Below the pieces are notes generated by a model. It saw nothing but the letters and a program-made list of their open reading frames with translations, did no database searches and was not told the DNA's origin. From a virus, in IMG/VR virus record IMGVR_UViG_3300013101_000113, positions 1-22,461 of that record: a stretch of DNA of 22,461 nucleotides. One strand, 5' to 3'. The position numbers and the translations under genes were made by a program. The first letter of the stretch is position 1; each line of letters starts with the position of its first letter. Shown here in pieces: positions 5,445 to 22,461 of this stretch.

Positions 5445-5803
5445 CGGAACTCTTTGAGTGGAATCTTGAACATGGCGATAAAATCAAGTTCTTTGAAGAG
5501 GTGTCAAAAAGGGGTAAGAAAACCCCTTTAGATGATATGCCAGTGTATGATTTAGCTTATGAATGGTACATGAAAGCATATCACATTCTTCGTTTCTCAA
5601 GGAGAGAAAGCGGGTATATACCTTTGTCTGAAATTCTTCTATACACTTCCCATTTTGAACTCATTGGCGCTAAGCATGAGTTTATAACGATAATCCAAGG
5701 GCTTGATTTTTCAGAGCGAGAGTTTTTCGATAAGAGAGATAATTCAAAAAAAGATCAAGAAAAACCCCAAGTAAATAAGAGAATCCAAAATGGCAGATTA
5801 TAA
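5441..5803 (+). CDS. Tail assembly chaperone T domain, made as a -1 frameshift extension (GT-like)
   Basis: The -1 frame relative to the upstream chaperone stays open through to TGA/TAA at 5801-5803. If the slip occurs at 5435-5441 it adds about 120 residues to give a G-T fusion of about 249 residues. The extension begins VTELFEWNLEHGDKIKFFEE, continues with DDMPVYDLAYEWYMKAYHIL and ends in a basic region. In lambda the T domain recruits the tube protein to the G-coated tape measure. An independent start is unlikely: the first candidate is GTG at 5501 with GAAGAG touching it and no proper spacing, and the first ATG is at 5537. The 3' end overlaps the tape measure start by 14 bases. Confidence 0.72.
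   Translation, partial: VTELFEWNLEHGDKIKFFEEVSKRGKKTPLDDMPVYDLAYEWYMKAYHILRFSRRESGYIPLSEILLYTSHFELIGAKHEFITIIQGLDFSEREFFDKRDNSKKDQEKPQVNKRIQNGRL
5508..5529 (+). repeat. Short perfect hairpin inside the chaperone T region
   Basis: aaagggg (5508-5514) and ccccttt (5523-5529) are perfect complements around an 8-base loop. It sits in the coding part of the T extension, 66 bases after the putative slip site, and has no T-run, so it is not a terminator. A role in frameshifting or in mRNA structure is possible but unproven. Confidence 0.5.
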
Positions 5804-8800
5804 TGTAAAGATTAATATTGAAGCTCAAGCCGCTCAAAGAGCAATATCCAAACTAGGAACTGAAATATCTGGTGCAGAAAGCAGAATTGATTCTTTTGGC
5901 GAATCACTTATAGAGTTTGGTTTTTCTACAAAAAAAGTACTTGAAATAACTGAAAAGATGTCAAAGGCTTTGAAGACTGAGACAGGTCTGCGCAATTTAC
6001 ACAATAAAGCCACAAGAGAATCCATCAAAGAAATAAACGCTCAGATCAAAGCCACAGCCGATTATGAAAAAGCAGTAGAGAGAGTAAGCGCAAAATACAA
6101 TCCATTAATTGCGCAACAACAAAAAGCCGCAAAACTATTTAATGAATTAACAATAGCGTTAAGAGAAGGAGCTATCACTTCCGATCAATTTGTAAAAGCA
6201 TTTGATAAACAAATGAGAGTGATTGATGGCACTGCTGCGGCTGAAGAAAAGCTACTTGCAATAACGATCAAGAAAAATAAAGCTTTGCAAGCATCTAGGA
6301 AAGCATTAGATCCACTTTTCGCTGCTCAAAGACAATACAAGAAAAACCTTATAGAGATAGAAAAGCAGAAGCGTGCTGGTAACATAACAACAAGAGAAAG
6401 ATTGTTATTAATCAATAGAGAAAAAGAGGTTTTATCAGGAGTTTTATCAATAGAGGAAAGACACAAACAGAAGCTGATTGAAGAAGGCAAGGCATTGAAT
6501 GATCTGAAAGCAAAGTATGATCCTTTGTTTGCGGCGATGCAAAAATACAAAAAGACAATGGCAGAGTTAAATGTTTTAAAAGATAAAGGAATGGTATCAG
6601 AGAAATTTTATGCAAATGCAGTTAAAGAAACAAAGAGAGCGCTGAGAGAATCTTTAGATGTAAAAAACAAGATTAAAGAAGCAAATGCGAAAGAAGCAAA
6701 AACGCTTAGCGATCTTAGAGCTAGATATGACACTTTGTACGCAGCAGAACAAAGATATGCAAAAGCACAAGCTGATTTATTAAGACTTCGAAGAGCAGGA
6801 GTGATAACAAAACAGCAAGAGATTAGACTTATTGCAGAGGCAACTAGAAGACGCAATGAAGAGACTGGTGCAACAGAAAGAAACATAGGCGCTGTAAGAA
6901 GGCTTACATTAGCAATAAGAGAGGCTGGGGTTTGGACAACTGCATGGGCTGGGTATGTAAGAGTATTAAGATTTGCTTGGAAAGTATTCTTTGGATTAAC
7001 AGTTGCTAAAACTGTTGGCAACTGGGCTATAGGTTTTGCAAAAGCAGGAGAATCGGTAGAACTTCTAGGTAAAAAATTAAAGTTTCTTACTGGAGAGAGC
7101 GACGCATTAGGTAAAGTTGCAAATTCAGCAAGAAAAGTTGGTATAGATTTAGACACACTGAACAAGACAATAACTAGGTTTGCAATAACAGCAAAAGGTG
7201 CATTTAATGTAAAAGAAATGTTATCATGGACAGAAGCGCTTGTTAAGTCAGGTCGTGTTGCAGGAACTACAAACTCAGAGCTACAGTCTGGTTTGTTACA
7301 GCTATCTCAGTCTTTGTCAGCCGGAAGGTTGATGGGTGATGAGTATAGATCGATATCAGAAAACTTACCATTACTGAAAATTGAGCTTCAGAAAATATTT
7401 GAAGAAATGGGCATGGGTAATATAGCATTAAAGAAATTATCCTCACAAGGATTAATCACTAACGATATTCTTATAGAGGCTTTCCAAAATCTCGGAAAAA
7501 CTGTTGAAGGTATGCCTGGTTCTATCGGAACAATAGATTCAGCGATATCAAGCTTAAGCACCGAAGTTAAACTTTTTATTGCTGAGATGACCAAAGGCGG
7601 AAGTGTTGTTCATGATGTTATAAAAAGCATATCTGAATCTTTGAGGTCATTAAGACAATCAATCTTCGGAGCAATAGAAGGAGAAGATAAGCTAAATGAT
7701 TCAATTGCAGATTCAACTTTAGGAACAGATAATTTTAGCAAGAGCGTAAAGAGAGTTAATGAAGAGATTAAAAAAGGAACTGAAATCACAAATGAGTTTT
7801 TGGCATCCATATTTGGCGTAAATAATGCAATGGCATCTGCATCGGATTCTATAGAAGAAACTAGTGTGTCAATGACTCTTTTAGGAACGGCAATGTCTGT
7901 GATAATGACTCTTTTTGCAGGAGGCATTGTTGTAAAATTGGCATCATTCGTAGCAAGAGTTGCAGGTCTAGGTCTTGCCGCAAGAGGGGCAGGAGCTTCA
8001 TTACGATTTATGTCGGCAGGTGTAAGTGGGCTACAGGCTAGTTTTTTATTGGCTGCGGTAGGATTAAACAAATTTTTTGGGATATTGAAATCTGGAGTAC
8101 AACTATTTAAAGGTTTCTTTACTGTAGCAGGGGCGACATTTTTAGCATATGCAGCGGCGATTGCCTATCCAATAGCGGCAATTGTTGATCATGTTGAAAA
8201 ACTAGAAAGACTTAAAGTCGTTCACGAAGAATCTATAGATCCTGCCATTGCATATGCAGAAAATATAAAAAGCATAAAGAAAGAGTTAGACGGCCTTAAT
8301 GTGAAAGAGTTATCTGATCGCATGTCTGAAAATGGCTTGAAAATGGTAGAAAATTCTGGATACACAGAAGAATTGAGGGGTAGAATATCAGAACTTAGTC
8401 ATCAAATATCTTTAGCTCCTGATAATGTAGAAAATTTACGTGATCAAATGGTTGTTCTGATAAATGTCATGAACCAATTAAGTGTAGCGAATCAGAATCT
8501 TGCACTGGATACAAAATTATCTGCGGATGAAGTTGATAATATTTCAATTTCTTTTGAGGGGGCTAGGAAAAAAGGACAAGATTTTTTAGATTCATTAAAG
8601 AACAAACAAGGATTGGACAAAGAATTTCTTGAATTTAGTCGACAGCAAGAGCAAACAGTAAAACATTTTGACGATCTTAAAAAATCAATACAAGGAATCA
8701 CAGTTGAGCAAGCGGCTTGGTTAGATCAGATGAAGGGCGCTGCGCTTCAAAGAGCTGCGAAGGCTTTTGATGAAGCTTCAAAAAGCTCAAAAAAGGCTAA

Positions 8801-9896
8801 GAAGAATATCAACAAGCTAACTCAAGCTCACATTGATATGAAAAAAGCTATCGCAGCTGGTGCAGGAGAAACTCAATTAGCGGAGATACAAAAGAGGATA
8901 GACAAGTACAGTGGTCTTACAGCAAAAGTAAAAGCTTTAGATAAAGCATTGAAAGATTCTGCCAAAGCTTCTGACAAATTAGCCAAAAAAGAAAAAAAAG
9001 CTCTTGAGGAAAGGATTAAGTTATGGGAGAAATTCAACCCTGATCTTGCAACATATTTAAATGAGGCAAAATCCTTAGCGAAAGCATTAAAACAAGGCGT
9101 CATAACGGAAAAAGAATTCAACAAACAGCTTAAAGAGCAACAAAAGCTTTTGAAATTAAATACTGGAAAAATGTCTGATTATGAAGAAGCGATTGAGGGA
9201 TGGAATTCTGGGCTTAAGAAATTTTCAGAAGAGGCTCAAGACTATTATTCGCAGATGGATTCATTTGCTCAGAAGACTATGAATAGTATGACAGATGCCT
9301 TGACAGAGTTTGTCACTACTGGTAAACTAGACTTTGCGAGCCTTGTGGATAGCATTGTTGCAGACCTTACCAGAATAGCAATTCAAGGTTCTATAACCGG
9401 TCCTTTAGCAGAAGTGCTTGGGATCGGAGGAGGAAGTTCTGGCGGAGGTGGTGGAAGTGCGGCAGGAGGTTTGCTAGGAGGATTGTTAGGAGGAGGCGGT
9501 GGTGGAACAGCAAATACATTAACCGCTGGAGGTGGTGGATTTGGCGGAATGCTGTCTAACGCAGCTATGATGTTTGGATTCAAAAATGGTGGGGCATTCA
9601 ACAATGGCGTCCAAGCATTTGCAAGTGGTGGAGTTGTAAACAGTCCCACGCTTTTCCCAATGGCTAACGGAGCAGGTTTGATGGGAGAGGCAGGTGCAGA
9701 AGCAGTAATGCCATTGAAAAGAACTTCAAGTGGAAAACTTGGTGTTGAAGCTTCTGGTGGTAGTAGTACAAATATAGTAATAAACATAAATGTCGCTGGG
9801 ACTAATGGCGATTCAGATGCAATAAGAAGAAGTGCAGGACAGGTTGCACAAGCCGCAGGTCAAGCTACTTCAAGAGCAATGAGAAGGAATGGGTAA
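5790..9896 (+). CDS. Tail tape measure protein
   Basis: A 1368-residue protein, the longest single-domain-family protein here, following the chaperone pair as in lambda. Residues 90-350 are charged coiled-coil with four repeats at an exact 70-residue period ('YDPLfAA..kYk......l...G.It' at 103, 173, 243, 313). Residues about 420-600 match the tape-measure N-terminal domain (SAGRLMGDEYRSISENLPLL and following helices). Hydrophobic stretches lie around 395-415, 695-720 and 750-800, as expected for segments that may enter the membrane. Residues 1150-1210 resemble the lambda tape measure C-terminal domain (MTDALTEFVTTGKLDFASLV). A Gly-rich linker (1211-1250) and a family-typical FASGGVVNSPTLFPMANGAG / GEAGAEAVMPL tail follow. 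By the usual ~0.15 nm per residue, the tail would be about 200 nm. Confidence 0.95.
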   Translation: MADYNVKINIEAQAAQRAISKLGTEISGAESRIDSFGESLIEFGFSTKKVLEITEKMSKALKTETGLRNLHNKATRESIKEINAQIKATADYEKAVERVSAKYNPLIAQQQKAAKLFNELTIALREGAITSDQFVKAFDKQMRVIDGTAAAEEKLLAITIKKNKALQASRKALDPLFAAQRQYKKNLIEIEKQKRAGNITTRERLLLINREKEVLSGVLSIEERHKQKLIEEGKALNDLKAKYDPLFAAMQKYKKTMAELNVLKDKGMVSEKFYANAVKETKRALRESLDVKNKIKEANAKEAKTLSDLRARYDTLYAAEQRYAKAQADLLRLRRAGVITKQQEIRLIAEATRRRNEETGATERNIGAVRRLTLAIREAGVWTTAWAGYVRVLRFAWKVFFGLTVAKTVGNWAIGFAKAGESVELLGKKLKFLTGESDALGKVANSARKVGIDLDTLNKTITRFAITAKGAFNVKEMLSWTEALVKSGRVAGTTNSELQSGLLQLSQSLSAGRLMGDEYRSISENLPLLKIELQKIFEEMGMGNIALKKLSSQGLITNDILIEAFQNLGKTVEGMPGSIGTIDSAISSLSTEVKLFIAEMTKGGSVVHDVIKSISESLRSLRQSIFGAIEGEDKLNDSIADSTLGTDNFSKSVKRVNEEIKKGTEITNEFLASIFGVNNAMASASDSIEETSVSMTLLGTAMSVIMTLFAGGIVVKLASFVARVAGLGLAARGAGASLRFMSAGVSGLQASFLLAAVGLNKFFGILKSGVQLFKGFFTVAGATFLAYAAAIAYPIAAIVDHVEKLERLKVVHEESIDPAIAYAENIKSIKKELDGLNVKELSDRMSENGLKMVENSGYTEELRGRISELSHQISLAPDNVENLRDQMVVLINVMNQLSVANQNLALDTKLSADEVDNISISFEGARKKGQDFLDSLKNKQGLDKEFLEFSRQQEQTVKHFDDLKKSIQGITVEQAAWLDQMKGAALQRAAKAFDEASKSSKKAKKNINKLTQAHIDMKKAIAAGAGETQLAEIQKRIDKYSGLTAKVKALDKALKDSAKASDKLAKKEKKALEERIKLWEKFNPDLATYLNEAKSLAKALKQGVITEKEFNKQLKEQQKLLKLNTGKMSDYEEAIEGWNSGLKKFSEEAQDYYSQMDSFAQKTMNSMTDALTEFVTTGKLDFASLVDSIVADLTRIAIQGSITGPLAEVLGIGGGSSGGGGGSAAGGLLGGLLGGGGGGTANTLTAGGGGFGGMLSNAAMMFGFKNGGAFNNGVQAFASGGVVNSPTLFPMANGAGLMGEAGAEAVMPLKRTSSGKLGVEASGGSSTNIVININVAGTNGDSDAIRRSAGQVAQAAGQATSRAMRRNG
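6096..6806 (+). repeat. Four 210-bp (70-residue) repeats in the tape measure gene
   Basis: Divergent repeats visible at protein level. The motif [Y/L][N/D][P/T]L.AAq begins at residues 103, 173, 243 and 313, and a G-x-[I/V]-[T/S] motif follows 24 residues later in each (127, 197, 267, 337). Spacing is exactly 70 residues each time. A degenerate relative occurs at about residues 1082-1106 (FNPDLATYLNEAKSLAKALK then QGVIT). The nucleotide sequences have drifted, so the duplication is old. Confidence 0.8.
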
Positions 9897-10570
9897 TGGC
9901 ATTTATAGAATCTCCAAGGTTTCCAGAGTTTATATCGTATGGGTCTAGTGGTGGCCCATCTTATAGCACTGATGTCATAACTGTGAAGAGTGGTTATGAG
10001 ACTAGAAACTCAAACTGGATTCAATCCAGAAGCAATTATGATGCTGCGTTTGGGATAAAAGTTCAGAAAGACATTGATACAATAGTTAATTTTTTTCATG
10101 CAATGAAAGGAAAGGCTAATGAGTTTCGGTTTAAGGACTGGGGAGATTACAAATCATGTCCACTTGATGACACGCCTAGTGCTATTGATCAATTCATAGG
10201 TATAGGCGATAGTACTGATGGTATAGATGGTGTGACAGATTTTCAGATAATAAAGAGTTATACTTCTGGAAGAACTACTGAGAGAGAAATCTACAAACCT
10301 GTTGTAGATTCGCTTGTTGTTGCAGTTGAAGGAATTGGTTCGGTTGAAGGCACAGACTATGATATAGATTATACTACTGGGATTATATCTTTTAAATCAG
10401 GGAGTGTGCCGTTATTGGATAGAGGTGATGGTCAACCAGAAACAATCACAGCTGGTTATGAGTTTGATGTTCCTTGTAGATTTGATTCAGATCAATTAAC
10501 AATAAACTTCGAGGCTTACCTTGTTGGTTCTGCAAGTATTCCAGTAATAGAGGTCAGAATTAATGTCTGA
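9896..10570 (+). CDS. Distal tail protein, DUF2460 / GTA g12-like
   Basis: A 224-residue protein with the pattern of the DUF2460 family (TIGR02217-like). It has FIESPRFPEFISYGSSGGPS at the N-terminus, then STDVITVKSGYETRNSNW, then a helix and FFHAMKGKANEFRFKDWGDY ('fF.a..G.a.gFr.kDw.Dyk'), and a C-terminal VPCRFDSDQLTINFEAY segment. In the Rhodobacter capsidensis-type GTA the equivalent g12 forms the ring joining tube and hub. The ATG overlaps the tape measure TAA by one base (TAATG), and the 3' end overlaps the next gene by eight bases, so the tip genes are coupled. Confidence 0.9.
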   Translation: MAFIESPRFPEFISYGSSGGPSYSTDVITVKSGYETRNSNWIQSRSNYDAAFGIKVQKDIDTIVNFFHAMKGKANEFRFKDWGDYKSCPLDDTPSAIDQFIGIGDSTDGIDGVTDFQIIKSYTSGRTTEREIYKPVVDSLVVAVEGIGSVEGTDYDIDYTTGIISFKSGSVPLLDRGDGQPETITAGYEFDVPCRFDSDQLTINFEAYLVGSASIPVIEVRINV

Positions 10571-12551
10571 GTTAACTAGTTATACATCATGTTTAAGAAT
10601 AGAAAGAACTGATGGATTTGTTCTTTGTATAACTGATTTAGACAGAAGTTTGGTGATAAACGATTCTATTCTTGGGTTAGGTGTTGATGATCAAACTTAT
10701 TTAGCTCCTGCCGGATATACTCCCACTAATATGCAAAGCACTTCTGACAATTCAGTGAACAATGCTGATATAGAAGGTGTGTTAACAGCCGTTGGAGTTG
10801 ATAGAAATGATATCATAGGTGGAAGATATGATTTTGCAAAACTAAATGTTTTCATTTACGATTATGAGAATCTTCTTTTAGTTAAGAAACTAGGCTCAGG
10901 TCATTGGGGCGAATCAACTGTCAAGGATAATTCTTATGTTGCTGAGTTTAGATCATTATCACAGCAAGTTCAGCAAACGATAGGAAGAACGTTTAATCCA
11001 GAGTGTGACGAACAACTAGGTGGGGTGAGATGTGGAGTTCCACTTGGAAATTTTCCTAAGAGTGGTGCAGTAACAGCGGATACAAGCAAAGATTATTTTT
11101 ATTCGTCCACAGTTACAGATGACAATGGTTTCTTAACTGGTGCTATAGCAACTTTTACGTCTGGAATAAATGATACTGTGTCTGCTCCAGTTGATTACAA
11201 TATCAAGGATACGCATAAAGTAGAATTAGGCGTTTCTCTTCCTAATGAGGCAGACATGGGTGCATCATTTGATATTGTGAAATTGGTTTTATCTGGTCAA
11301 TCTGTCACAGAAGTCGGCACAACAAACACTTTTGAGGATTCTGGTCAATCAAAGATAAATGGATATTACAATGGATGGAATATAACTTTTACATCTGGAA
11401 ACAATAATGGAATAACATACTCAGTCAATACTTTTGAGAATAACATTTTCACTACCGAGGAGATGTCAAATTTATCTGTGGAAGGTGATGCATTTGATTT
11501 ATTGAGAGTGGTTGCTGGGACTATAACTGTTATTGAAGTTCAGAGGACAGTTTTTACAGATACTTCACTGACAGAAGAAACGGGATACTTTGATGGATTG
11601 ACATTGGAGTTTACCACTGGTGATAATATAGGAAAAACCGCAACAATAATAAGCTACACTGGGATCGATAGAACGTTCACAATTGATGATGCGAATCTAA
11701 CTCAAGATTTGACTCCTGGCGATGGATATGAAATACTTAAACCGGATTCAGGTTCAATAACAAGCATAGATAAGAATAAGATATTTTCTGATTCATCATT
11801 AACAAACCCAAGTGGAGAGTTGATCGGGTATAGCATTCAGTTCACTTCCGGACCTAACACATCTGATAGTTATATAATAAGCAATCAGAATTTAGGGATA
11901 ATCACTTTGTTAAATCCTACTCCAGCTGATATATCGCCACTTGATGTTTATGATATAAATTATGAACAATCTGGAGTAATAGATTCTAATGGTGCATCAA
12001 AGGACGAAATTCTTGATGATACAATATTAGGTTCAGCAGATTTTAATGGAATGACTGCTCAAATGGATTCAGGAGCGAATGCAGGTCAGACCTCAACTAT
12101 TCAATCAACTAACACAGGGGCATTGGTTGTATCTCCTCCTTTTCCTAATTACAATCTAAATGGTGATAACTACAGTGTTATAAACTCAGGAGATAATTTT
12201 ATGTCTCTTGGTGAGATTACTGAAGTTACTGATAATCAAAATTTCAAAGCTACTTTGACTGATGATCCTAATTTTGGAGATGATTACTTCAACTATGGAA
12301 AATTGATATTCACTGGTGGTCAGAATGTTTCGATTCATATGGAGGTAAAGGATTTTATAGATGTTGACAATGTTTTTGAAATGTTTTTACCTTTCCCATT
12401 TGATATTGAAGTTGGTGATACTTTTCAGGTTTTTGCTGGGTGTGATAAAAGGCTTGAAACTTGCAAGACAAAGTTTGATAATCATATTAATTTTCAAGGA
12501 TTTCCGTATATTCCAGGCCAAGATGCCATAACGAAATTTGGTGGTCAATAA
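10563..12551 (+). CDS. Tail hub protein, DUF2163 / BR0599 type, with six tandem C-terminal modules
   Basis: A 662-residue hub. Residues 1-165 are the DUF2163 N-terminal domain (SYTSCLRIERTDGFVLCITD, the ADIEGVLTAVGVDRNDIIGG segment, and NPECDEQLGGVRCGVPLG). The C-terminal end is the BR0599-type segment: GDTFQVFAGCDKRLETCKTK followed by FDNHINFQGFPYIPGQDA. Relatives are usually about 280-300 residues with one C-terminal module. Here six modules of 74-82 residues lie in tandem, marked by an FTSG-like turn at residues 198, 276, 350, 427, 501 and 583. Four cysteines (148, 157, 627, 634) match the usual conserved quartet, despite 470 residues between the pairs. GTA g13 and lambda gpL relatives are reported to hold an iron-sulfur cluster, so a cluster here is an inference. 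Confidence 0.9.
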   Translation: MSELTSYTSCLRIERTDGFVLCITDLDRSLVINDSILGLGVDDQTYLAPAGYTPTNMQSTSDNSVNNADIEGVLTAVGVDRNDIIGGRYDFAKLNVFIYDYENLLLVKKLGSGHWGESTVKDNSYVAEFRSLSQQVQQTIGRTFNPECDEQLGGVRCGVPLGNFPKSGAVTADTSKDYFYSSTVTDDNGFLTGAIATFTSGINDTVSAPVDYNIKDTHKVELGVSLPNEADMGASFDIVKLVLSGQSVTEVGTTNTFEDSGQSKINGYYNGWNITFTSGNNNGITYSVNTFENNIFTTEEMSNLSVEGDAFDLLRVVAGTITVIEVQRTVFTDTSLTEETGYFDGLTLEFTTGDNIGKTATIISYTGIDRTFTIDDANLTQDLTPGDGYEILKPDSGSITSIDKNKIFSDSSLTNPSGELIGYSIQFTSGPNTSDSYIISNQNLGIITLLNPTPADISPLDVYDINYEQSGVIDSNGASKDEILDDTILGSADFNGMTAQMDSGANAGQTSTIQSTNTGALVVSPPFPNYNLNGDNYSVINSGDNFMSLGEITEVTDNQNFKATLTDDPNFGDDYFNYGKLIFTGGQNVSIHMEVKDFIDVDNVFEMFLPFPFDIEVGDTFQVFAGCDKRLETCKTKFDNHINFQGFPYIPGQDAITKFGGQ

Positions 12552-12973
12552 TGATAATAGATAATGTTATTGAAGAGGCCAGATCGTATTTAGGAACTAC
12601 TTGGGTTCATCAAGGACGATCCAGAAGAGGGGTTGATTGCGTAGGTTTTCTTCTGCTTTCATTTATGACATCTGGAATAAAATTAAATGATTCAAGAGGG
12701 TATGCAAGAAAACCTGATGGAATTATGTTAAAGAAAATGATGGATGGTCAGAAGAGTTTTATGACTGTTGGTAAAAATGACATAAAAGCTGGAGATGTTT
12801 TGTTGTTTAGGATACGTCATGATCCTCAACATGTCGGTCTAGTAGTGCCTAGCAAAACTGCAAAGTTTGGTATGATTCACTCATATAATGGTGGAGAAAA
12901 GAAAGTTGTTGAGCATGATTTAGCTGATTACTGGATCAAAAAAATAGTTGCTGTTTATAGGCTGATAGAGTAA
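12551..12973 (+). CDS. NlpC/P60 tail peptidase, GTA g14-like
   Basis: A 140-residue papain-like hydrolase of the phage NlpC/P60 type. The catalytic Cys is at residue 30 in GVDCVGFLL, the His at 94 in HDPQHVGLVV, and the third polar residue is probably His110 in GMIHSYNGG. The DIKAGDVLLFRI segment (about 77-88) is a family hallmark. The enzyme probably cleaves peptide cross-links of peptidoglycan during DNA entry and sits in the baseplate. The gene lies between hub and g15-like gene exactly as in the GTA. Its ATG overlaps the hub stop by one base, and its own stop overlaps the next ATG the same way. Confidence 0.93.
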   Translation: MIIDNVIEEARSYLGTTWVHQGRSRRGVDCVGFLLLSFMTSGIKLNDSRGYARKPDGIMLKKMMDGQKSFMTVGKNDIKAGDVLLFRIRHDPQHVGLVVPSKTAKFGMIHSYNGGEKKVVEHDLADYWIKKIVAVYRLIE

Positions 12974-15900
12974 TGGCAGTTGCGGCGGTAGGATTAGTAG
13001 GTGCGGCTGTAGGCTGGGGAGCTTTTACTGTTGGAGTAATAGGTGCAACTACTTTAGCGACAGCTGTTCAAGTTGGGTGGATAGCTGGCACCTTGTTGGG
13101 TACTTTGCTATTCGCAAAAGAGAACATCATAGAGCAATCAGGGCCAAGGCTAGGAGATTTAGATACTCAAACTGCTAAATGGGGAACTTCTATACCTAGG
13201 CTATTTGGATCATTTAAACTTGCAGGAAATGTTATATGGTCTTTACCATTGCATGAAACAAAGCATGTTGATGAATCAGGAGAAGGAAAAGGACAAGGAG
13301 GAACAAAGACATCATCAACTTGGTATTCGTATGCTGGTTCATGGGCTGTTGCATTTTGCGAAGGAACTATTGAAGGTGTAAAAAGAATATGGTTTGATTC
13401 TGTTTTGGTTTATGATGGTGTGAACTATCATGGAGGATTGGATTACGATAACTATAATGTGCACAAAGGAACTGGGAATCAAAGCGTTGATTGGTTTATA
13501 CAATCAAAAGACGAAGACACTCCTGCTTACAGAAATGTTGTTTATATAGTTTTCAGAAAGATAGAGCTTGAGAATTATGGGAATAGAGTTCCAAATGTAA
13601 GTGTCGAATTAGTGGAGAAAGGTGATTTTCCACCACCTAGATTTATAGATAAAACTATATTTAAGAATACTCCAGATTTGGATATGAATAAGTACTCTGC
13701 CACTTTATATGCAGGAAAGGGTGGGGTTGCTTATGTTCATCCCGGATTAAAGATGAGTTTGCAATCTCATGGAAAGGCTGTCATAAGCTCTCAGTATCCT
13801 CCAAGAGAAGATGACGATGATTTAGGTGAATTCACAGAGTATAGATATTTCTCGCTGAAAGGTCAGGAGAAGTTTCCACTTCCAGAAAAACCAGAAATCT
13901 TGGAGCCAGAATATAACATAGAATCCGCAAGAGTCTATTACACAGAAAGGTTTGAATATGTGCTATTGGTAGGAGGTGGAGGATATCAATATTTGGTGAT
14001 TCCTCCAGTAGAGAATTCTCCTGATAACGATGCAAGAGTTATTATAGATGATGAAAACATTCACGATATTGCTCCATATGATGATGGATTGCTACAGCTA
14101 AATACTAATGATGAGATTATAATACTTGATTCGAATTTTATTGAAGTAAGAACTGTAAGTCTAAATTGGAATGACAAAAAACCAAAGATGACTACAAATG
14201 TCTTTGAAAGAACTAGAATAACAAATGTTGATAATGGAGTTGTTTACATAGCGGCAAGCAGTTCTGAGTTCATAGATTCTATAGGTTGGTTATTCTATAA
14301 AACTAATCTTGATGATGGAAACGTAGAGTATCTAGGAGAGTTTAGGGATACTGATAACATAAATTTCACAAACTCCAGTCAAGCTACGTCTATAATAATC
14401 AAGAATGCTATTGCAAATATATCTCAAGCTTCTGTAACTTATTCATATTATTATGTTGATTTATCTCCATTTGACAAACTTTCTGTTCCTATCAGCAGTG
14501 TGTGTAGTGACGTATTACTAAGGGCTGGTTTAAAGGAAGATGAGTTTGACGTTTCTGATGGAGTGGAGTTGATTAGTGGATATGTAATAACAAAATCTAT
14601 GTCAGCTAGAGCAGCGTTGCTTCCAATCACCACTGCTTATCAATATGACATGACTGAAATAGATAGTGTGATTAGGTTATTAAAGCGTGGATATGATAGC
14701 TTAGTGCAGATAAACATGAGCGAGGAAAGTGTTGGAGATGTTTCTGTCAAGAGAACTCAGGAGGTTGAGTTAAGCAAACAGATCAATGTTCAATATGCAA
14801 ACGAATCAAATGATTATCAATACGGATTGCAAGTAGCTCAGAGAATAGATAGAAATGCAGATGGTATAAGAAATTATCAGTTTAACATGGCTTTGACTGA
14901 TGACAAGGCAAAGCAGATAGCTGAGATAATATTATTCAATGAATGGAACGAAACTCTAACTTTTGAATTCATGCTATCAAGAGATTACGAGTATCTTAAA
15001 CCTGCTGATGTAATAACATTATTATATGACGGAAGTAATTACAATGTTAGGGTGACAGATATAGCATTCAATACTGATAGTTCTATCTCTATTAAATCGA
15101 CAATAGAGAATGGAGAGGTCTATGAGTCTTTTGCAGAAGGGAGCAACACAAACAACAGTGGTCTTACTCAAGACAAAGTTGATTTAATTGGTATTACGTA
15201 TATGTATGTTTTAGACATACCAACTCTTGATAGTCAGTTAGATTTTCCAAGTTTATACATAGCTGTTAGAGGTGCTTTTTCAGGATGGAAAGGTTGTGAA
15301 GTTCATAAATCGAGAGACAATGTTGATTACTCCAGAGTAATAGGTGGTCTACAAAACACTATAATGGGCTACACACTAACTGAATTGCAGACTGGTGTAT
15401 CTCATATTTTTGATAGAGCAAGTGTTGTTACGGTAATTGTCATAGACGAATCTTTATATTCAGTAACAAAAGAGATTCTTCTTTCTGGAGAGAACTATGT
15501 TCTTATCGGTAATGAGATATTGCAATATCAAGATGCTATTGATAATGGTGACAACACTTTTACATTAAGAAATTTCCTAAGAGGAAGGAGAGGTACTGAA
15601 TGGGCAATTACGACTCATGAATTGAATGATAGATTTGTCTTTTTGGATACTACCTTGTTAGCTGACATAGATGTAACGATAAGCTCAAAGACTTATTACA
15701 AAGCGACCACTTTGGGTCATTTTGTTGAAGATTCATCCCCTATAGAAATAACACCTGAGCTTGTATCAAAAATGCCTTTTTCTGTTGAATACATAAGGTG
15801 TCAAAGCGAAGACAATGATGACAAAACAATTCAATGGATGAGAAGATCAAGAGAAGTATCAGGATACATGAGAACACTATCACTGTTCGAAAGTTTTGAG

Positions 15901-16098
15901 AGATATCAAATCGATATTTACGATGATGCTCATGTAGATGTTGTTGCTACAAAAACAATTGATGAAGCTCAAGAATATTTTTACCCAGCATCAAATCAGA
16001 CGTCTGATGGGATAACGCCTGGATTGCCAATGAAGATAATGATATATCAAATGTCGGATTTTGTTGGACGTGGATATGGAAAAGAGGCTATTTTATAA
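12973..16098 (+). CDS. Giant tail-tip protein, GTA g15-like, paralog 1 of 3
   Basis: A 1041-residue protein. Residues 4-47 are a hydrophobic Gly/Ala-rich segment. Residues 56-215 are a conserved tail-tip domain (GPRLGDLDTQTAKWGTSIPR, LFGSFKLAGNVIW, WAVAFCEGTIEGVKRIWFDS, DTPAYRNVVYIVF, NRVPNVSVELVE). Residues about 220-500 are a variable beta-rich middle, propeller-like by eye. From about 505 a second conserved region starts (SSVCSDVLLRAGL, ISGYVITKSMSARAALLPIT, LKPADVITLLYDG) like the Phage-tail_3/g15 C-terminal half. It then has NYVLIGNEILQYQDAIDNGD and LRNFLRGRRGTEW near 840-877. In GTA g15, this region contacts the hub and host-recognition parts. The TIM-barrel segment of g15 is not recognisable. 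Start overlaps the peptidase stop by one base. Confidence 0.85.
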   Translation: MAVAAVGLVGAAVGWGAFTVGVIGATTLATAVQVGWIAGTLLGTLLFAKENIIEQSGPRLGDLDTQTAKWGTSIPRLFGSFKLAGNVIWSLPLHETKHVDESGEGKGQGGTKTSSTWYSYAGSWAVAFCEGTIEGVKRIWFDSVLVYDGVNYHGGLDYDNYNVHKGTGNQSVDWFIQSKDEDTPAYRNVVYIVFRKIELENYGNRVPNVSVELVEKGDFPPPRFIDKTIFKNTPDLDMNKYSATLYAGKGGVAYVHPGLKMSLQSHGKAVISSQYPPREDDDDLGEFTEYRYFSLKGQEKFPLPEKPEILEPEYNIESARVYYTERFEYVLLVGGGGYQYLVIPPVENSPDNDARVIIDDENIHDIAPYDDGLLQLNTNDEIIILDSNFIEVRTVSLNWNDKKPKMTTNVFERTRITNVDNGVVYIAASSSEFIDSIGWLFYKTNLDDGNVEYLGEFRDTDNINFTNSSQATSIIIKNAIANISQASVTYSYYYVDLSPFDKLSVPISSVCSDVLLRAGLKEDEFDVSDGVELISGYVITKSMSARAALLPITTAYQYDMTEIDSVIRLLKRGYDSLVQINMSEESVGDVSVKRTQEVELSKQINVQYANESNDYQYGLQVAQRIDRNADGIRNYQFNMALTDDKAKQIAEIILFNEWNETLTFEFMLSRDYEYLKPADVITLLYDGSNYNVRVTDIAFNTDSSISIKSTIENGEVYESFAEGSNTNNSGLTQDKVDLIGITYMYVLDIPTLDSQLDFPSLYIAVRGAFSGWKGCEVHKSRDNVDYSRVIGGLQNTIMGYTLTELQTGVSHIFDRASVVTVIVIDESLYSVTKEILLSGENYVLIGNEILQYQDAIDNGDNTFTLRNFLRGRRGTEWAITTHELNDRFVFLDTTLLADIDVTISSKTYYKATTLGHFVEDSSPIEITPELVSKMPFSVEYIRCQSEDNDDKTIQWMRRSREVSGYMRTLSLFESFERYQIDIYDDAHVDVVATKTIDEAQEYFYPASNQTSDGITPGLPMKIMIYQMSDFVGRGYGKEAIL

Positions 16099-19000
16099 TG
16101 TCAGGTAATTCTATAGGAACAATTGTAGGAGCGGCGATAGGATTACTTGTTCCAGTTATAGGGCCAGGTTTAGGCGCTTCCATTGGTGGTGCAGTAGGAG
16201 GGATGCTACTGCCTGATAAACTAGGCATTCAAGATCAGAATGGGCCAAGGCTTAATGATCTAAGCGTTACTAGTGCATCATATGGTGCAACTATTCCTAA
16301 GACTTATGGTGCATACAGAATATCTGGAAATGTTATTTGGACTGAGGGTATAAGGGAAGTAAAACACGTAAGAGAGGAAGAGGTAGGCAAAGGAAGTGAG
16401 ACGTATGATGTAACATGGTTTACATATTCTGTCGATATAGCTATAGGGATATGTGAAGGGGAAATCCATAACATAAGCAAGGTATGGGCAGATTCTATTC
16501 TGATATGGGACGCCAACACTGGTGGTTTTACTACATCTATAGTAGATCAGGATGAAGCATCCGGTAATATGTCTATTTATACAGGAAGGCAAGACCAAAA
16601 ACCAGATTGGTTGATGCAAAAATCAGAACCAGACACACCAGCATACAGAAATGTTGCTTATGTTGTTTTCAACAACCTACAGCTAGAAGTGTTTAAAAAT
16701 CGCATACCTAATTTTACATTTGAAGTGAACAGTCAGGCTCCGCCAGAAGCTCTTCCTATGATACTTGGAGGGCATTCCACAATTGAGGGGTTTGATATAA
16801 CAGACCCCGGCATAAGAAACTATGATCCTATACTTCCTGTTAAAGCTAGTGCTGTTAATGGAGTTATAAACTCAGTTAAGTTTGTTGGTGCATATGATTT
16901 GCCTGTTGGAGATGTGACTCCAAGGATAACCCAAGGCTGGGCTGAGTATCATATATTTCAGGATGATCAAGTAAGAAGACAAGCTCCAATAGCAGATTAT
17001 GAAGGAATGGCGGCAGATGATCAGTTCAATCAAATTCCTTCGGCCGGCTCTAAAGGATGGACTCAAGAAGATAAGCTTAGTTCTACATTAAATTTCATAG
17101 GAACTGTGTATGATTTTGGAGATTGGGGAGGCACTTCTCACCAATTGATAGGGCTAGGTATTTTTGCTAATCCATATGGAGGAAGGCAGATAAGAACGCT
17201 TCCATCTAAGATAGTTGAAAGACACGGTTCTCTGTATGCAATGGCAGATACTATGCTTGTAGACGGCATTGCAGGTACAACTAATAGGATAAATGTTCAA
17301 AAAATAATAAAATACTCATATCCACCTGTTACAGTTCAGACAAAAAAAGGCTCTAGCTCTCCGCCAGTCAGTCCTGAATATGAATGTTATGTCACTTATG
17401 CTGGCACAGAAGACACGGCAAGAGGGAAGTTTATAAACCCAGATCATCTACCATGTTCAGAAATACATTTGGAGGATGACTTTGTTCCTGATTTAGTGTA
17501 CGATTTTACTAGACCTATTCAAGACATTTTTGATGTTTCAGAATACACCAACATTGATAAAAACAATAATGGGCGATATGATTTTTTTGTTGGCATAGAT
17601 AACATATACTTTATAGAAACATATAATATGTATGATGATGGACCGTTGTTTATAACAATGGATCTTGATGGTAATGTGACAGACCAAAGAATACTAAAAC
17701 ACCCTATGTTTTCATCTAATATGAGAGCGGATTTAATAGTCCATAGAACTGATGCAATAGTTTATTTAGTAATTGATTATTTATCGAGACATGATTCTTA
17801 TAATGTGTGGTCTAAAGCAGTATTTGAAATTAATACCTTTGATGATTACAGGATTGATTATTTAGGATATACGTATGTGCCAGACAGATATGACTGGTAT
17901 TGTTTCACTTTTGCAGGCACTCCGTATTTAGACATAATCGACGGTAGATTTTATATGTCTCAGTTAGAGATGTATAGTCGATCAGATAGTGGATGGCCTA
18001 ATGGGCAAAAATGGCTAGGTGCTGGAATATGGTCTTTATACTCTGCATCTTATGAAGGCATTCCATTATCTGAGATAATAATTGATTTGCTTGTTAGAGG
18101 TGGAATAGACGAAAGCGTTATAGAAGCCGGTGAAGCTGCGAGTACTACTGTAAAAGGGTTTTTAGTTGCAAAACAAATGTCAACAAGATCGGCTATAGCA
18201 GAACTTCAAAAAACTTATTTGTTTGATCTTATTGAGCAAGATTTCGGTTTTGTGGTCAGGATGAGAGGAGATTTTCTTTCAGTAGGCACAATAAGTCATC
18301 AAGATGTTAGTGGTGTGATAGAGATTGCAACCACTATAGATACTGAAATTCCAAGAAAAGTTACTTTGAGGTATCCAAATAAGAATACTGATTATCAAGC
18401 AGGATCACAGACAGCAATAAGAATAGATGGAAACAGTGATAATAATGTTGTGATTGAAACTGTTGTTGTTTTTACTGATGATGAGGCGAAACAATTAGCA
18501 GAAAAATTATTGTATTCTTCTTGGGGCGGGAAGTCTACTATAAAACTTTCTATACCTTTTACAAATAAATATTCCGTAGCTGATATAGTTACTATTGTTG
18601 ATGTCACTGTTACATATAATGCAAGAATAGTGAAAATAAATTATTCTGACAACCATCTTATGCAGGTTGATTTGGTTGTCGAAGACACATCTAGTTATAC
18701 GTCTAATGCAGAAGGTTCAAGCACTGATGATGGATTCTTAACAAATAGACCAGATGATATATCTAATACATATCTCGAAGTATTCAACGCTCCACATTTG
18801 ATCAATAATTTGATAAAATCAAGAGGGATTTATTATGGTGCAGAAGGATACGGGGATTTATGGAGAGGTTGTGAGGTTTTTAAATCAAAGAACTCAGGTC
18901 AAACCTATCAATCGGTAGGGGCAATACTTGATGCATCTGTTATTGGTCAAGTATCTCCAGCTTTGAAATATCACAAATCTGCTGTATGGGATACCACTAG

Positions 19001-19661
19001 TGTGTTGAATGTATTTGTTGGCGATGATGTATTGTATAGTGTTTCACAGGAAGAAATAAACAATGGCACTGCAAATTTAGCATTGGTTGGGAAAGAAGTC
19101 ATTCAATTTAAAGATGTTATAGAGAAAGAATACGGTGTGTATGAACTTACAAATTTGATAAGAGGATTACAAGGCACTGAAAACGCAGCTGGAGAGCATG
19201 AAGATTTTGAATTATTTGTAATGCTCAATCTTGATTTAGGGTTTTCTTTTTCCACGTTAGATTTGGAAAGAAAGTATGTTGCAGCGTCCTTTGGGAAACT
19301 TGTAGATTATAATGGTGCTATCGATAGGACATATGATGGCACTAACCTAAAACCTCTTTCTCCAACAAGACTCAATAGTGTGTTGATGCCTAATGGCGAT
19401 AAAGAAATAACTTGGAACAGAAGAGACCGATATGTGAGGTATAGCTTTAATACGTCACCATTTTCTGAGACTTCTGAAATATACAAACTTGAGTTTTTGG
19501 CATCAGGTGTGATTGTTAGAGAGGAAGAGATATATTCCGATTACACTTTTCTATACACAGTTTCAATGCAATCAACTGACGGTAATGTTGATTTAATCAG
19601 AGCTTATCAATTTTCTGATGATATTTTTAAGGCTGGTGAATATTCGGAGATAACTATCTAA
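16098..19661 (+). CDS. Giant tail-tip protein, GTA g15-like, paralog 2 of 3
   Basis: A 1187-residue paralog of the preceding protein. It opens with a glycine-zipper segment (IGTIVGAAIGLLVPVIGPGL, residues 6-25, and GGAVGGMLLP), then the conserved domain at 49-210 (GPRLNDLSVTSASYGATIPK, NRIPNFTFEV). The variable middle runs from about 212 to 650, the longest of the three, rich in Tyr, Trp and Asp, beta-strand-like, without similarity by eye to the middles of the other two. The conserved second half starts at about 655 (LSEIIIDLLVRGGI, VAKQMSTRSAIAELQ) and carries NLALVGKEVIQFKDVIEKEY then LIRGLQGTENAAGEHED near residues 993-1035. Expected role is in the baseplate or receptor recognition. The start is TAATG with the preceding gene's stop, and agagg lies ten bases upstream. 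Confidence 0.85.
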   Translation: MSGNSIGTIVGAAIGLLVPVIGPGLGASIGGAVGGMLLPDKLGIQDQNGPRLNDLSVTSASYGATIPKTYGAYRISGNVIWTEGIREVKHVREEEVGKGSETYDVTWFTYSVDIAIGICEGEIHNISKVWADSILIWDANTGGFTTSIVDQDEASGNMSIYTGRQDQKPDWLMQKSEPDTPAYRNVAYVVFNNLQLEVFKNRIPNFTFEVNSQAPPEALPMILGGHSTIEGFDITDPGIRNYDPILPVKASAVNGVINSVKFVGAYDLPVGDVTPRITQGWAEYHIFQDDQVRRQAPIADYEGMAADDQFNQIPSAGSKGWTQEDKLSSTLNFIGTVYDFGDWGGTSHQLIGLGIFANPYGGRQIRTLPSKIVERHGSLYAMADTMLVDGIAGTTNRINVQKIIKYSYPPVTVQTKKGSSSPPVSPEYECYVTYAGTEDTARGKFINPDHLPCSEIHLEDDFVPDLVYDFTRPIQDIFDVSEYTNIDKNNNGRYDFFVGIDNIYFIETYNMYDDGPLFITMDLDGNVTDQRILKHPMFSSNMRADLIVHRTDAIVYLVIDYLSRHDSYNVWSKAVFEINTFDDYRIDYLGYTYVPDRYDWYCFTFAGTPYLDIIDGRFYMSQLEMYSRSDSGWPNGQKWLGAGIWSLYSASYEGIPLSEIIIDLLVRGGIDESVIEAGEAASTTVKGFLVAKQMSTRSAIAELQKTYLFDLIEQDFGFVVRMRGDFLSVGTISHQDVSGVIEIATTIDTEIPRKVTLRYPNKNTDYQAGSQTAIRIDGNSDNNVVIETVVVFTDDEAKQLAEKLLYSSWGGKSTIKLSIPFTNKYSVADIVTIVDVTVTYNARIVKINYSDNHLMQVDLVVEDTSSYTSNAEGSSTDDGFLTNRPDDISNTYLEVFNAPHLINNLIKSRGIYYGAEGYGDLWRGCEVFKSKNSGQTYQSVGAILDASVIGQVSPALKYHKSAVWDTTSVLNVFVGDDVLYSVSQEEINNGTANLALVGKEVIQFKDVIEKEYGVYELTNLIRGLQGTENAAGEHEDFELFVMLNLDLGFSFSTLDLERKYVAASFGKLVDYNGAIDRTYDGTNLKPLSPTRLNSVLMPNGDKEITWNRRDRYVRYSFNTSPFSETSEIYKLEFLASGVIVREEEIYSDYTFLYTVSMQSTDGNVDLIRAYQFSDDIFKAGEYSEITI

Positions 19662-22461
19662 TGGGAACAGCAGCGTTTGGTGCAATAGGATCAGCAATAG
19701 GTGGTGAGGTAGCAGGAGCTTTTGGTTCTCAGTTAGGTTGGGTTGCTGGAACGCTAGTAGGAACCTACTTGTTTGCTCCTCCCGGTCCTGATTTAGTACA
19801 AGAGGGGACTAGACTTGATGATTTAAAAGTGACATCGTCCACTTATGGAGCTAGTGTTCCTAAGCTTTTTGGATCTTATAGACTATCTGGCAACGTTATA
19901 TGGGCCAAAAAGATTCGCGAAACCAAACATGAAGAGAGTCAAGATTCAGGAAAAGGATTAGATGGTGGAACATCTACTACGATATGGTACACATATGATG
20001 CAACATGGGCCGTTGCTTTCTGTGAAGGTCCGATAGACGGCATTAGAAAAATATGGTTTGATTCAATTCTTGTTTATGAAAATGGAAAGTCTGAGATAGG
20101 CGATAGAATAACAATCTACAATGGAACTGATGATCAAGAAGTTGATTGGGTGATACAGTCAGACAGAGAGGACAACCCTGCTTACAGAAATATCGTTTAT
20201 GTTGTTTTTAATGAGGTTAAGCTTAAGAAGTATGGTGATAGGATACCTAATGTTACTTGCGAAGCTGTAATAGGATCAAGCAATGAAAGAGACGTTTATC
20301 ATACTGTCACTGGAGAGATAAATTTCTCAGACACTCTTTCTGAGATAATGGGAATTGATTTTGACGCAGGTGTAAACAAGGATTTTGTGTTTAACAGTCC
20401 ATCAAATTCTATGTTTTTTGTTGCCACAAGAACAGATCCAGTGACAAGATTGATCACAGATTCTGTTTTGGCAAAAGTAAATGTAGAAGGCCGCATTGTT
20501 TTTTATAAGATAATTAAGCCTCAGAAGTATGAGTATTCTATAGGAGATGGTGGATTAGTTTTATGGTCTGATAATGCCAATGTTTCTGCTGATTTTTTTG
20601 TTTATGACGACCAATTGGATTTAATATCCAGTCAGACTCTTTTGTATTACAACATTGATACCGATACTTATTGGGCTGGAGGTGAAGGGTTTTTTGTTTC
20701 AAAGGTTGCCTATACTGATAAAAAACTTATTTGGATGGTGAGGGATTACACAACTCAATTTGCTGGTGGGATTTATGTAAATGGAGATAAAGTCATTGAT
20801 GGTGCTGATTTAACTGATATATATCCAAGAAACGGATTATCTGCCATTGGAGGAAAGATAGTTTTATTTTCTGACAGAGCATTTGCGCAGGTAGGTGATG
20901 AGTATAAGATAAGAGTTTATGAGACAACTGGCGATCTTGATTTTGAGATGGATTATAAAAAATACAAGTACTCAGAGATACTTTCCATAAACAATGCAAC
21001 AACTCAGTTTAAGCCAACGGAAAATGGGATTATAGTTGCTTGTTCTTTTGGTTGGGATAATGGTAGACATCATTGGTTAATTGACACAAATGATGCTGAT
21101 GCTTTTGAATATCTAGGTGCTAATAAACCATCTGGAGATGAAGGGTATGGCGATGCAAAAGGTGGATTTTATTCAAGCAACATAAATTATATTCTCGATA
21201 GCACTTGGGGAGTTGTTTTAGCAAATACATCGGCATTGCTTACTAGTCAAGGAATAAGATTATCTGACTTATGCTATGGTTTATTGATAGAGTCTGGTCT
21301 TGATGATGTTGATTTGGATATGACAGAAGGGAAAGATACTATTGTTTCTGGATATGTCGTTTCCAAGAATATGCCTGCAAGAACGGCCATTGAACCTGTG
21401 TTATCTGCATATGAATTTACGCTTGTTGAAATAAACTCTACAATGAAGCTTAGAGAGCAAAATCAGATATCCTTAGCAAACATACCAGAGGATGATTTAG
21501 GCGCAGATGGCAACAATAAGATGGAGTACAACTCATCTCAAGAAATGGATTTACTGAAAAGCTTAACAATAAAGTTCTCTAACAGAGACTCTGATTATCA
21601 AACAGGCGTTCAAAGTGTAAGAAGAATCGACACTGATGCTACAACAGAAAGAGTTATGGAGCTTCCACTAGCTTTATCTGATAAAGAGGCAAAAGAATTA
21701 GCTGAAAAGAATTTGTATAAAAATTGGCTTATGAGGCAGTCTTATAAATTTGTAGTTCCGTATAAATATCGCTACTTAATACCTGGCGATGTTGTTACTG
21801 TTAGTTTTGATGGATATGTAAAAGATGTAAGATTAACAAAGATAATTTTCACTGACGACTTTCTTGTTGAATGCAATGGAATAGCAAATAATTATGGTGT
21901 ATATAATTCTGATGCAGAAGCTGATAGCACTGGAGAGAATGGTGGAGAGTTAGATTTAACGTCTTTCAGCACATACAATAACATTTTAGATGCTCCTACA
22001 CTGAATAATAAATATGTCAATGTTGAAGGTGTTTATTCTGGATTGTATTCGTTTTCAGATAACTGGAAAGGTGGCGTTCTAATGTCTAAGTCATTAGAGC
22101 TTGATAATTTCGCAATAAACTATACAACTTTTGAAGATATGCCAAGTGGTGTATCGAGTTCTTCTTTGCCAGATGCAAGTACTGATGTATGGGATAGGGT
22201 AAATGTATTAAAAGTTTATTCTAGCGGAATTTTGGAATCAAAAACAGAAGAGCAATTATTAGCTGGAGAAAACTATATACTTTTAGGTAGAGAGGTGTTA
22301 CAATATGCTAACGCCACTGAAATATCTTTGGGAATATACGAGTTAGATACATTGCTTAGGGGCAGGCTTGGAACTGAGTTTGAAACTGGTAGTCATTCAG
22401 GACAAGAGGTTTTTGCGTATCTGGATAGAAATGCTCTGTATTTTACATCAAAGCCAATGAA
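19661..22461 (+). CDS. Giant tail-tip protein, GTA g15-like, paralog 3 of 3 (3' end outside window)
   Basis: An open frame starts at ATG 19661, overlapping the previous stop by one base, and runs 933 codons to the window edge without a stop. The N-terminus has a Gly-rich hydrophobic segment (GAIGSAIGGEVAGAFGSQLG). The conserved domain follows at 49-205 (GTRLDDLKVTSSTYGASVPK, LFGSYRLSGNVIW, NPAYRNIVYVVFNE, GDRIPNVTCEAV). The variable middle is at about 210-530 (beta-rich; the segment IYVNGDKVIDGADLTDIYPR lies inside it). The conserved second half begins about 532 (IRLSDLCYGLLIESGL, VSKNMPARTAIEPVL, YLIPGDVVTVSF) and includes ENYILLGREVLQY ... LLRGRLGTEFETGSH near 869-915. By comparison with paralogs 1 and 2, about 145-150 residues (roughly 440 bases) remain beyond the window. 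Partial because of the window edge, not because of a mutation. Confidence 0.85.
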   Translation, partial: MGTAAFGAIGSAIGGEVAGAFGSQLGWVAGTLVGTYLFAPPGPDLVQEGTRLDDLKVTSSTYGASVPKLFGSYRLSGNVIWAKKIRETKHEESQDSGKGLDGGTSTTIWYTYDATWAVAFCEGPIDGIRKIWFDSILVYENGKSEIGDRITIYNGTDDQEVDWVIQSDREDNPAYRNIVYVVFNEVKLKKYGDRIPNVTCEAVIGSSNERDVYHTVTGEINFSDTLSEIMGIDFDAGVNKDFVFNSPSNSMFFVATRTDPVTRLITDSVLAKVNVEGRIVFYKIIKPQKYEYSIGDGGLVLWSDNANVSADFFVYDDQLDLISSQTLLYYNIDTDTYWAGGEGFFVSKVAYTDKKLIWMVRDYTTQFAGGIYVNGDKVIDGADLTDIYPRNGLSAIGGKIVLFSDRAFAQVGDEYKIRVYETTGDLDFEMDYKKYKYSEILSINNATTQFKPTENGIIVACSFGWDNGRHHWLIDTNDADAFEYLGANKPSGDEGYGDAKGGFYSSNINYILDSTWGVVLANTSALLTSQGIRLSDLCYGLLIESGLDDVDLDMTEGKDTIVSGYVVSKNMPARTAIEPVLSAYEFTLVEINSTMKLREQNQISLANIPEDDLGADGNNKMEYNSSQEMDLLKSLTIKFSNRDSDYQTGVQSVRRIDTDATTERVMELPLALSDKEAKELAEKNLYKNWLMRQSYKFVVPYKYRYLIPGDVVTVSFDGYVKDVRLTKIIFTDDFLVECNGIANNYGVYNSDAEADSTGENGGELDLTSFSTYNNILDAPTLNNKYVNVEGVYSGLYSFSDNWKGGVLMSKSLELDNFAINYTTFEDMPSGVSSSSLPDASTDVWDRVNVLKVYSSGILESKTEEQLLAGENYILLGREVLQYANATEISLGIYELDTLLRGRLGTEFETGSHSGQEVFAYLDRNALYFTSKPM

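Follow-up and report, generated by a model that had tools for sequence, protein, structure and literature searches.

The closest described relatives of the tail tip analysed here are those of RcGTA and of roseophage R4C, in which three megatrons and three hubs are joined in a C3 complex (PMC7296036, PMC10276861). In these megatrons the N-terminal helices form the iris that closes the channel, the central domain attaches the protein to the distal tail, the peripheral domain points outward and the C-terminal domain holds fibres (PMC7296036, PMC10276861); the fibre rod of R4C is bound at this last, fibre-binding domain of the megatron (PMC10276861). In Caulobacter phages, a duplication of the megatron was published for CcrColossus in 2012, and gp99, the single megatron homolog of phiCbK, was detected in virions (PMC3556154). 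The tip protein is already known; of three copies no earlier report was found, and no paper on hetero-trimeric or tandem megatron tips emerged from a literature search that lay mostly outside subscription journals. Here, we analyse a stretch of viral DNA of 22,461 bases, hereafter the window, and compare its tip genes with these systems.

Megatron paralogs and tail gene order

The features of the window are collected in Table 1. The megatron gene is triple, whereas RcGTA and R4C have one megatron, and the hub, distal-tail and peptidase genes are single. The order is the same as in RcGTA and R4C, with the megatron placed after tape measure, distal tail, hub and peptidase; the order distal tail, hub, NlpC/P60 and megatron is found also in CcrColossus and R9Y2, and the position of the putative tape-measure ORF upstream of the tip genes is matched in CcrColossus and XM05. 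A TAATG stop/start overlap is present at all four junctions (12551, 12973, 16098 and 19661).

Table 1. Features of the window and the evidence on which each is named.
Feature	Position	Strand	Evidence
Whole window; virus record, tail-tip genes in right half on + strand	22,461 bases	+	
Large ORF, 1368 aa, tape-measure position, upstream of tip genes	5790..9896	+	length, gene order
Distal-tail-like protein (DUF2460, g12-like), single copy	9896..10570	+	PF09343 E 3e-59
Baseplate hub (g13-like), single copy, ~400 aa insert	10563..12551	+	PF09931, PF09356
NlpC/P60 tail peptidase (g14-like), single copy, overlapping paralog 1 start	12551..12973	+	PF00877 E 8.7e-13; TAATG junction
Megatron paralog 1, 1041 aa	12973..16098	+	Pfam, BLASTP, AF2 model, PDB profile and fold matches to RcGTA/R4C megatrons
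Parts of paralog 1: iris; adhesin-like; variable middle; central domain (PF13550); fibre-binding (PF23666)	residues ~1-46; ~47-215; 221-504; ~505-740; to end		
Variable middle 1, 284 aa, peripheral-domain position, probable beta-propeller	13633..14484	+	held-out profile, AF2
Megatron paralog 2, 1187 aa	16098..19661	+	Pfam, BLASTP, trees
Variable middle 2, 436 aa	16746..18053	+	no profile match; AF2 mean pLDDT 41
Megatron paralog 3, at least 933 aa, cut by contig end	19661..22461	+	ORF, Pfam, BLASTP, trees
Variable middle 3, 323 aa, probable beta-propeller	20279..21247	+	held-out profile

A preliminary description had recognised three tandem g15-like tip proteins with conserved ends, and this is borne out by the ORFs, BLASTP and Pfam, with the C-terminus of paralog 3 lying beyond the window. 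In pairwise BLASTP comparisons the N-terminal ~215 residues of the three paralogs are 38-47% identical (E 8e-42 to 2e-60) and the C-terminal halves, as far as the cut end of paralog 3 extends, 29-32% identical (E 1e-59 to 2e-49). All three contain Phage-tail_3 (PF13550) and Rcc01698_C (PF23666) above the curated cut-offs and begin with a GxxxG-rich N-terminus, residues 1-36 of which are modelled with low confidence in paralog 1. A profile of the family searched against the PDB matches the megatrons of RcGTA (6tba/6teh, E 1.2e-150) and R4C (8gtc, E 4.1e-119), and the AlphaFold2 model of paralog 1 (mean pLDDT 78.8) retrieves the same proteins in a fold search (6tba_8A, Z 31.5; 8gtc_M, Z 28.9). 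The tip proteins of JBD30, Chi, T5 and lambda (gpJ) are distant and show similarity of the core fold (Z 14 to 20) in the fold search alone. All three genes encode paralogs of the tail-tip protein called megatron, which is g15 (Rcc01698) in RcGTA and is found also in R4C; they resemble it, in sequence and fold, in the adhesin-like, central and fibre-binding parts and probably in the iris/penetration part. The conserved N part corresponds to the iris and adhesin-like domains, the C half to the central and fibre-binding domains, and the middle to the peripheral domain.

In the neighbouring hub gene, the insert sits between conserved ends, is shorter in the related contig L012 and is almost absent in L013; four cysteines of the hub are conserved across the three triplet phages in the alignment. 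Within the insert the stretches GYYNGWNITFTSGNN and GYFDGLTLEFTTGDN look alike, and a self-BLAST found no repeat.

Copy number, descent and fibre-anchor genes

Scanning IMG/VR with protein 1 alone gave no matches, and profiles of the conserved parts were required to find relatives. Three full tandem copies were found only in the window and in two IMG/VR contigs, L012 (3300013101_001348) and L013/L174 (3300013101_000164). Most of the loci fetched carry one megatron, so that the earlier statement that RcGTA and most relatives have a single such protein holds as a rule, but several phage groups carry two: CcrColossus, CcrBL9 and Domovoi; XM05, L044 and L051; and L091. In CcrColossus (Dolichocephalovirinae) gp122 and gp123 are a tandem duplication of the same protein as in the window, with two copies instead of three, and in Erythrobacter phage XM05, L044 and L051 both paralogs are full megatrons; by the trees, each of these duplications is independent of that in the window.

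Further arrangements of the gene were seen. In five alphaproteobacterial genome loci (L237, L238, L241, L244, L250) an N-domain-only megatron-like gene lies directly before a full megatron, and in six contigs (L035, L050, L061, L143, L152, L167) the megatron N and C parts are in separate ORFs. Paralogs 2 and 3 of L012 (5154-8984 and 8985-13001) extend beyond the usual C-terminal end, and paralog 3 has a lectin-like Laminin_G_3 domain at its C-terminus.

Trees of 48 proteins were built separately for the N and C parts, as the preliminary description had suggested, and the proteins fall into identical position groups at both ends. All nine proteins of the triplets belong to a single clade (support 98/91 in the N tree and 100/100 in the C tree), within which positions 1, 2 and 3 are each a clade at 100/96 or better in both trees, and the lineages with two copies are placed outside it, in separate clades of their own. 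There is no sign that N or C parts were exchanged between positions. Positions 1 and 3 are joined in the N tree, positions 2 and 3 in the C tree; recombination between the N and C parts of different positions is not claimed from this, since the alternative topology is not rejected in AU tests (p 0.054 and 0.13). The trees show a single triplication in an ancestor shared by at least three phages, after which every copy was kept open, and two-copy tips that arose independently of it. The gene triplication proposed from the window is in this way upheld across three contigs. That the copies are recent, decaying duplicates was considered and rejected: all are open in three diverged phages, and only paralog 3 of L013 is without a middle.

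Genes sharing an N-terminal domain of ~130 aa, which we call fibre-anchor genes, accompany these megatrons. L012 has three of them in tandem directly after the third megatron, and L174 has at least two, found before the contig end; a single such gene is present in L026 and L038, the nearest single-copy relatives. XM05 (L006, L261), L044 and L051 (9992-20650) show the order megatron, fibre, megatron, fibre, with an anchor gene of its own after each megatron, unlike the triplet L012, in which the anchors come after the third. This alternating order looks like the duplication of a two-gene cassette. Two megatrons and two anchors are present in CcrColossus, CcrBL9 and Domovoi, one of each in Bajun, L02 and RXM, and one megatron with two anchors in phiCbK. 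Two or more anchors are found in three of the three informative multi-megatron lineages versus 2 of 41 single-copy ones (non-redundant; Fisher p 0.0008), a test conceived after seeing the data and ignoring relatedness. In CcrColossus the two anchors follow the two megatrons, but phiCbK already has two anchors with one megatron, and because of this the pairing of one fibre per megatron is not strict. Against the PDB, the N-terminus of the R4C fibre is the second-best match of the anchor profile, at a non-significant E of 0.34.

The variable middles

The middles had been described as unrelated, with lengths of about 280, 440 and 320 residues. The lengths (284, 436 and 323 aa) and the absence of similarity by BLAST, in which no match among the three middles passes, stand; the lack of relationship does not, as profiles reveal homology between middles 1 and 3. 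Divergence is in fact fast: orthologs of the same position share 52-66% identity in their N parts and 38-48% in their C parts, and their middles are no more alike than shuffled sequences. About 20 of the 107 non-redundant family members have almost no middle, and in paralog 3 of L013 (10001-12268) there is none, the N and C parts being joined by 3 residues.

A held-out profile was made from seven middles of phages other than that of the window, each represented by its final 200 residues, and among 4189 sequences it ranked window middle 1 first (E 0.0075) and middle 3 second (E 0.015); when these two were added, the left-out position-2 middle of L013 was matched at E 3.7e-5. The homology between middles 1 and 3 lies in the second half of each. 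Furthermore, the middles of paralogs 1 and 2 of L012 are alike by BLAST, and the single-copy outgroups L026 and L038 have the middle common to L012 paralogs 3 and 1. Window middle 2 is matched by none of the profiles of the middles, and Pfam and PHROGs searches of the three window middles returned no meaningful family.

The fold of these domains was approached by modelling and by profile searches. The structure predictions that had been proposed for the middles succeeded in part, with blade-like strands in half of middle 1 and a mean pLDDT of 41 for middle 2. In the AlphaFold2 model of paralog 1, residues 363-496 form antiparallel strands in groups of four (10-residue mean pLDDT 51-87), the pattern of propeller blades, and residues 225-358 are without a confident model. 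Searched against the PDB, a profile of seven middles from other phages gave 12 matches up to E 10, all beta-propellers by name (WD40, NHL, SWD3 and WRAP designs), and the reversed-sequence control matched none of the 12. For WD40 targets the E-values (down to 5e-27) are inflated, because the scores of identical repeats in the target are added up; single repeats give at most about 8 bits, and these matches are taken as a pointer only, alongside the reversed control. Among 65 family middles, Pfam found GTA_TIM in four members and GH113 in four, with weak matches to the propeller families Kelch, SGL, Reg_prop and PQQ in others; GTA_TIM (PF13547), present in 4 of these 65, is absent from the three window middles up to E 10. 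The peripheral domain of the window, with no match to the TIM-barrel family of the GTA, is probably a beta-propeller, unlike that of the GTA, and an enzymatic role of the middles, raised in the preliminary description, finds no support.

From these sequences, the simplest reading is that one ancestral middle domain was copied with the gene and then diverged fast; where homology is visible, the middles are probably diverged copies of one fold, a beta-propeller. The exchange of domains postulated earlier, by which middles of three different folds would have been swapped in from unrelated sources, would account for middles that are at shuffled level even between orthologs and that vary in the family from TIM-barrel-like to propeller-like or almost none. 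We consider it improbable, given that middles 1, 3 and the L013 position-2 ortholog match one profile, that L012 middles 1 and 2 resemble each other, that the single-copy outgroups share this middle and that the position groups agree between the N and C trees; the visibly homologous middles look like diverged copies of one fold.

Assembly of the tip

On the model of RcGTA and R4C, all three paralogs may take part in the tip, the simplest arrangement being a single copy of each around the C3 hub. Three different peripheral domains, fast-evolving and probably diverged beta-propellers that bind surface glycans or receptors, would then be displayed, and perhaps also a different fibre for each paralog. 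A 1:1:1 tip is the most likely because all three paralogs keep every part that C3 assembly needs. This hetero-trimer, proposed in the preliminary description, is plausible and consistent with the sequence data, and the multiplied fibre-anchor genes lend it further support; in the form where each paralog contributes its own middle, and perhaps its own fibre, it is the best-supported reading, and unproven. The full account, a single old triplication leading to a 1:1:1 tip with different peripheral domains and perhaps a fibre for each paralog, is held tentatively, at somewhat less than even confidence. Its strict form, an obligate 1:1:1 hetero-trimer in which each paralog has its own receptor-binding propeller and its own fibre around a single pore, seems doubtful. 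Two copies cannot form a 1:1:1 tip in a C3 ring, so that paralogs need not co-assemble in this way, and paralog 3 of L013, without a middle, implies that a third recognition module is not required there and that not every copy needs one.

The impossibility of 1:1:1 in the two-copy lineages also speaks for a second possibility, rather unlikely in our view, in which tips are homo-trimers or random mixtures of the paralogs, and the population contains tips of varied composition and host preference. The complete N and C parts of all three paralogs, as far as seen, and the fast divergence of the middles, fitting alternative receptors, would agree with it, but the position-specific clades kept through deep divergence and the stop/start overlaps suggest separate roles and joint production. 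Less probable again is a division of labour by layer, where one canonical megatron would form the C3 iris and hub complex and the others would be accessory, as an extra ring or as fibre carriers. N-domain-only genes beside full megatrons, together with split megatrons, imply that the parts can act apart, and the alternation of megatron and fibre genes in XM05, L044 and L051 points the same way; however, the central domain, which attaches to the distal tail, is retained in all three window paralogs, so that they would compete for one site. The 1:1:1 tip is retained as the preferred reading.

If its strict form is true, one virion would display three recognition modules around a single pore, with a channel-gating protein that is normally homo-trimeric. 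That fibre-anchor genes have multiplied in parallel in several lineages leads to a testable prediction, the pairing of paralogs and fibres, and the triplet offers a test case for multiplying receptor-binding modules without altering the injection core. The long-kept triplication provides, in this sense, a natural experiment on whether three specialised subunits can together form a gated three-fold pore.
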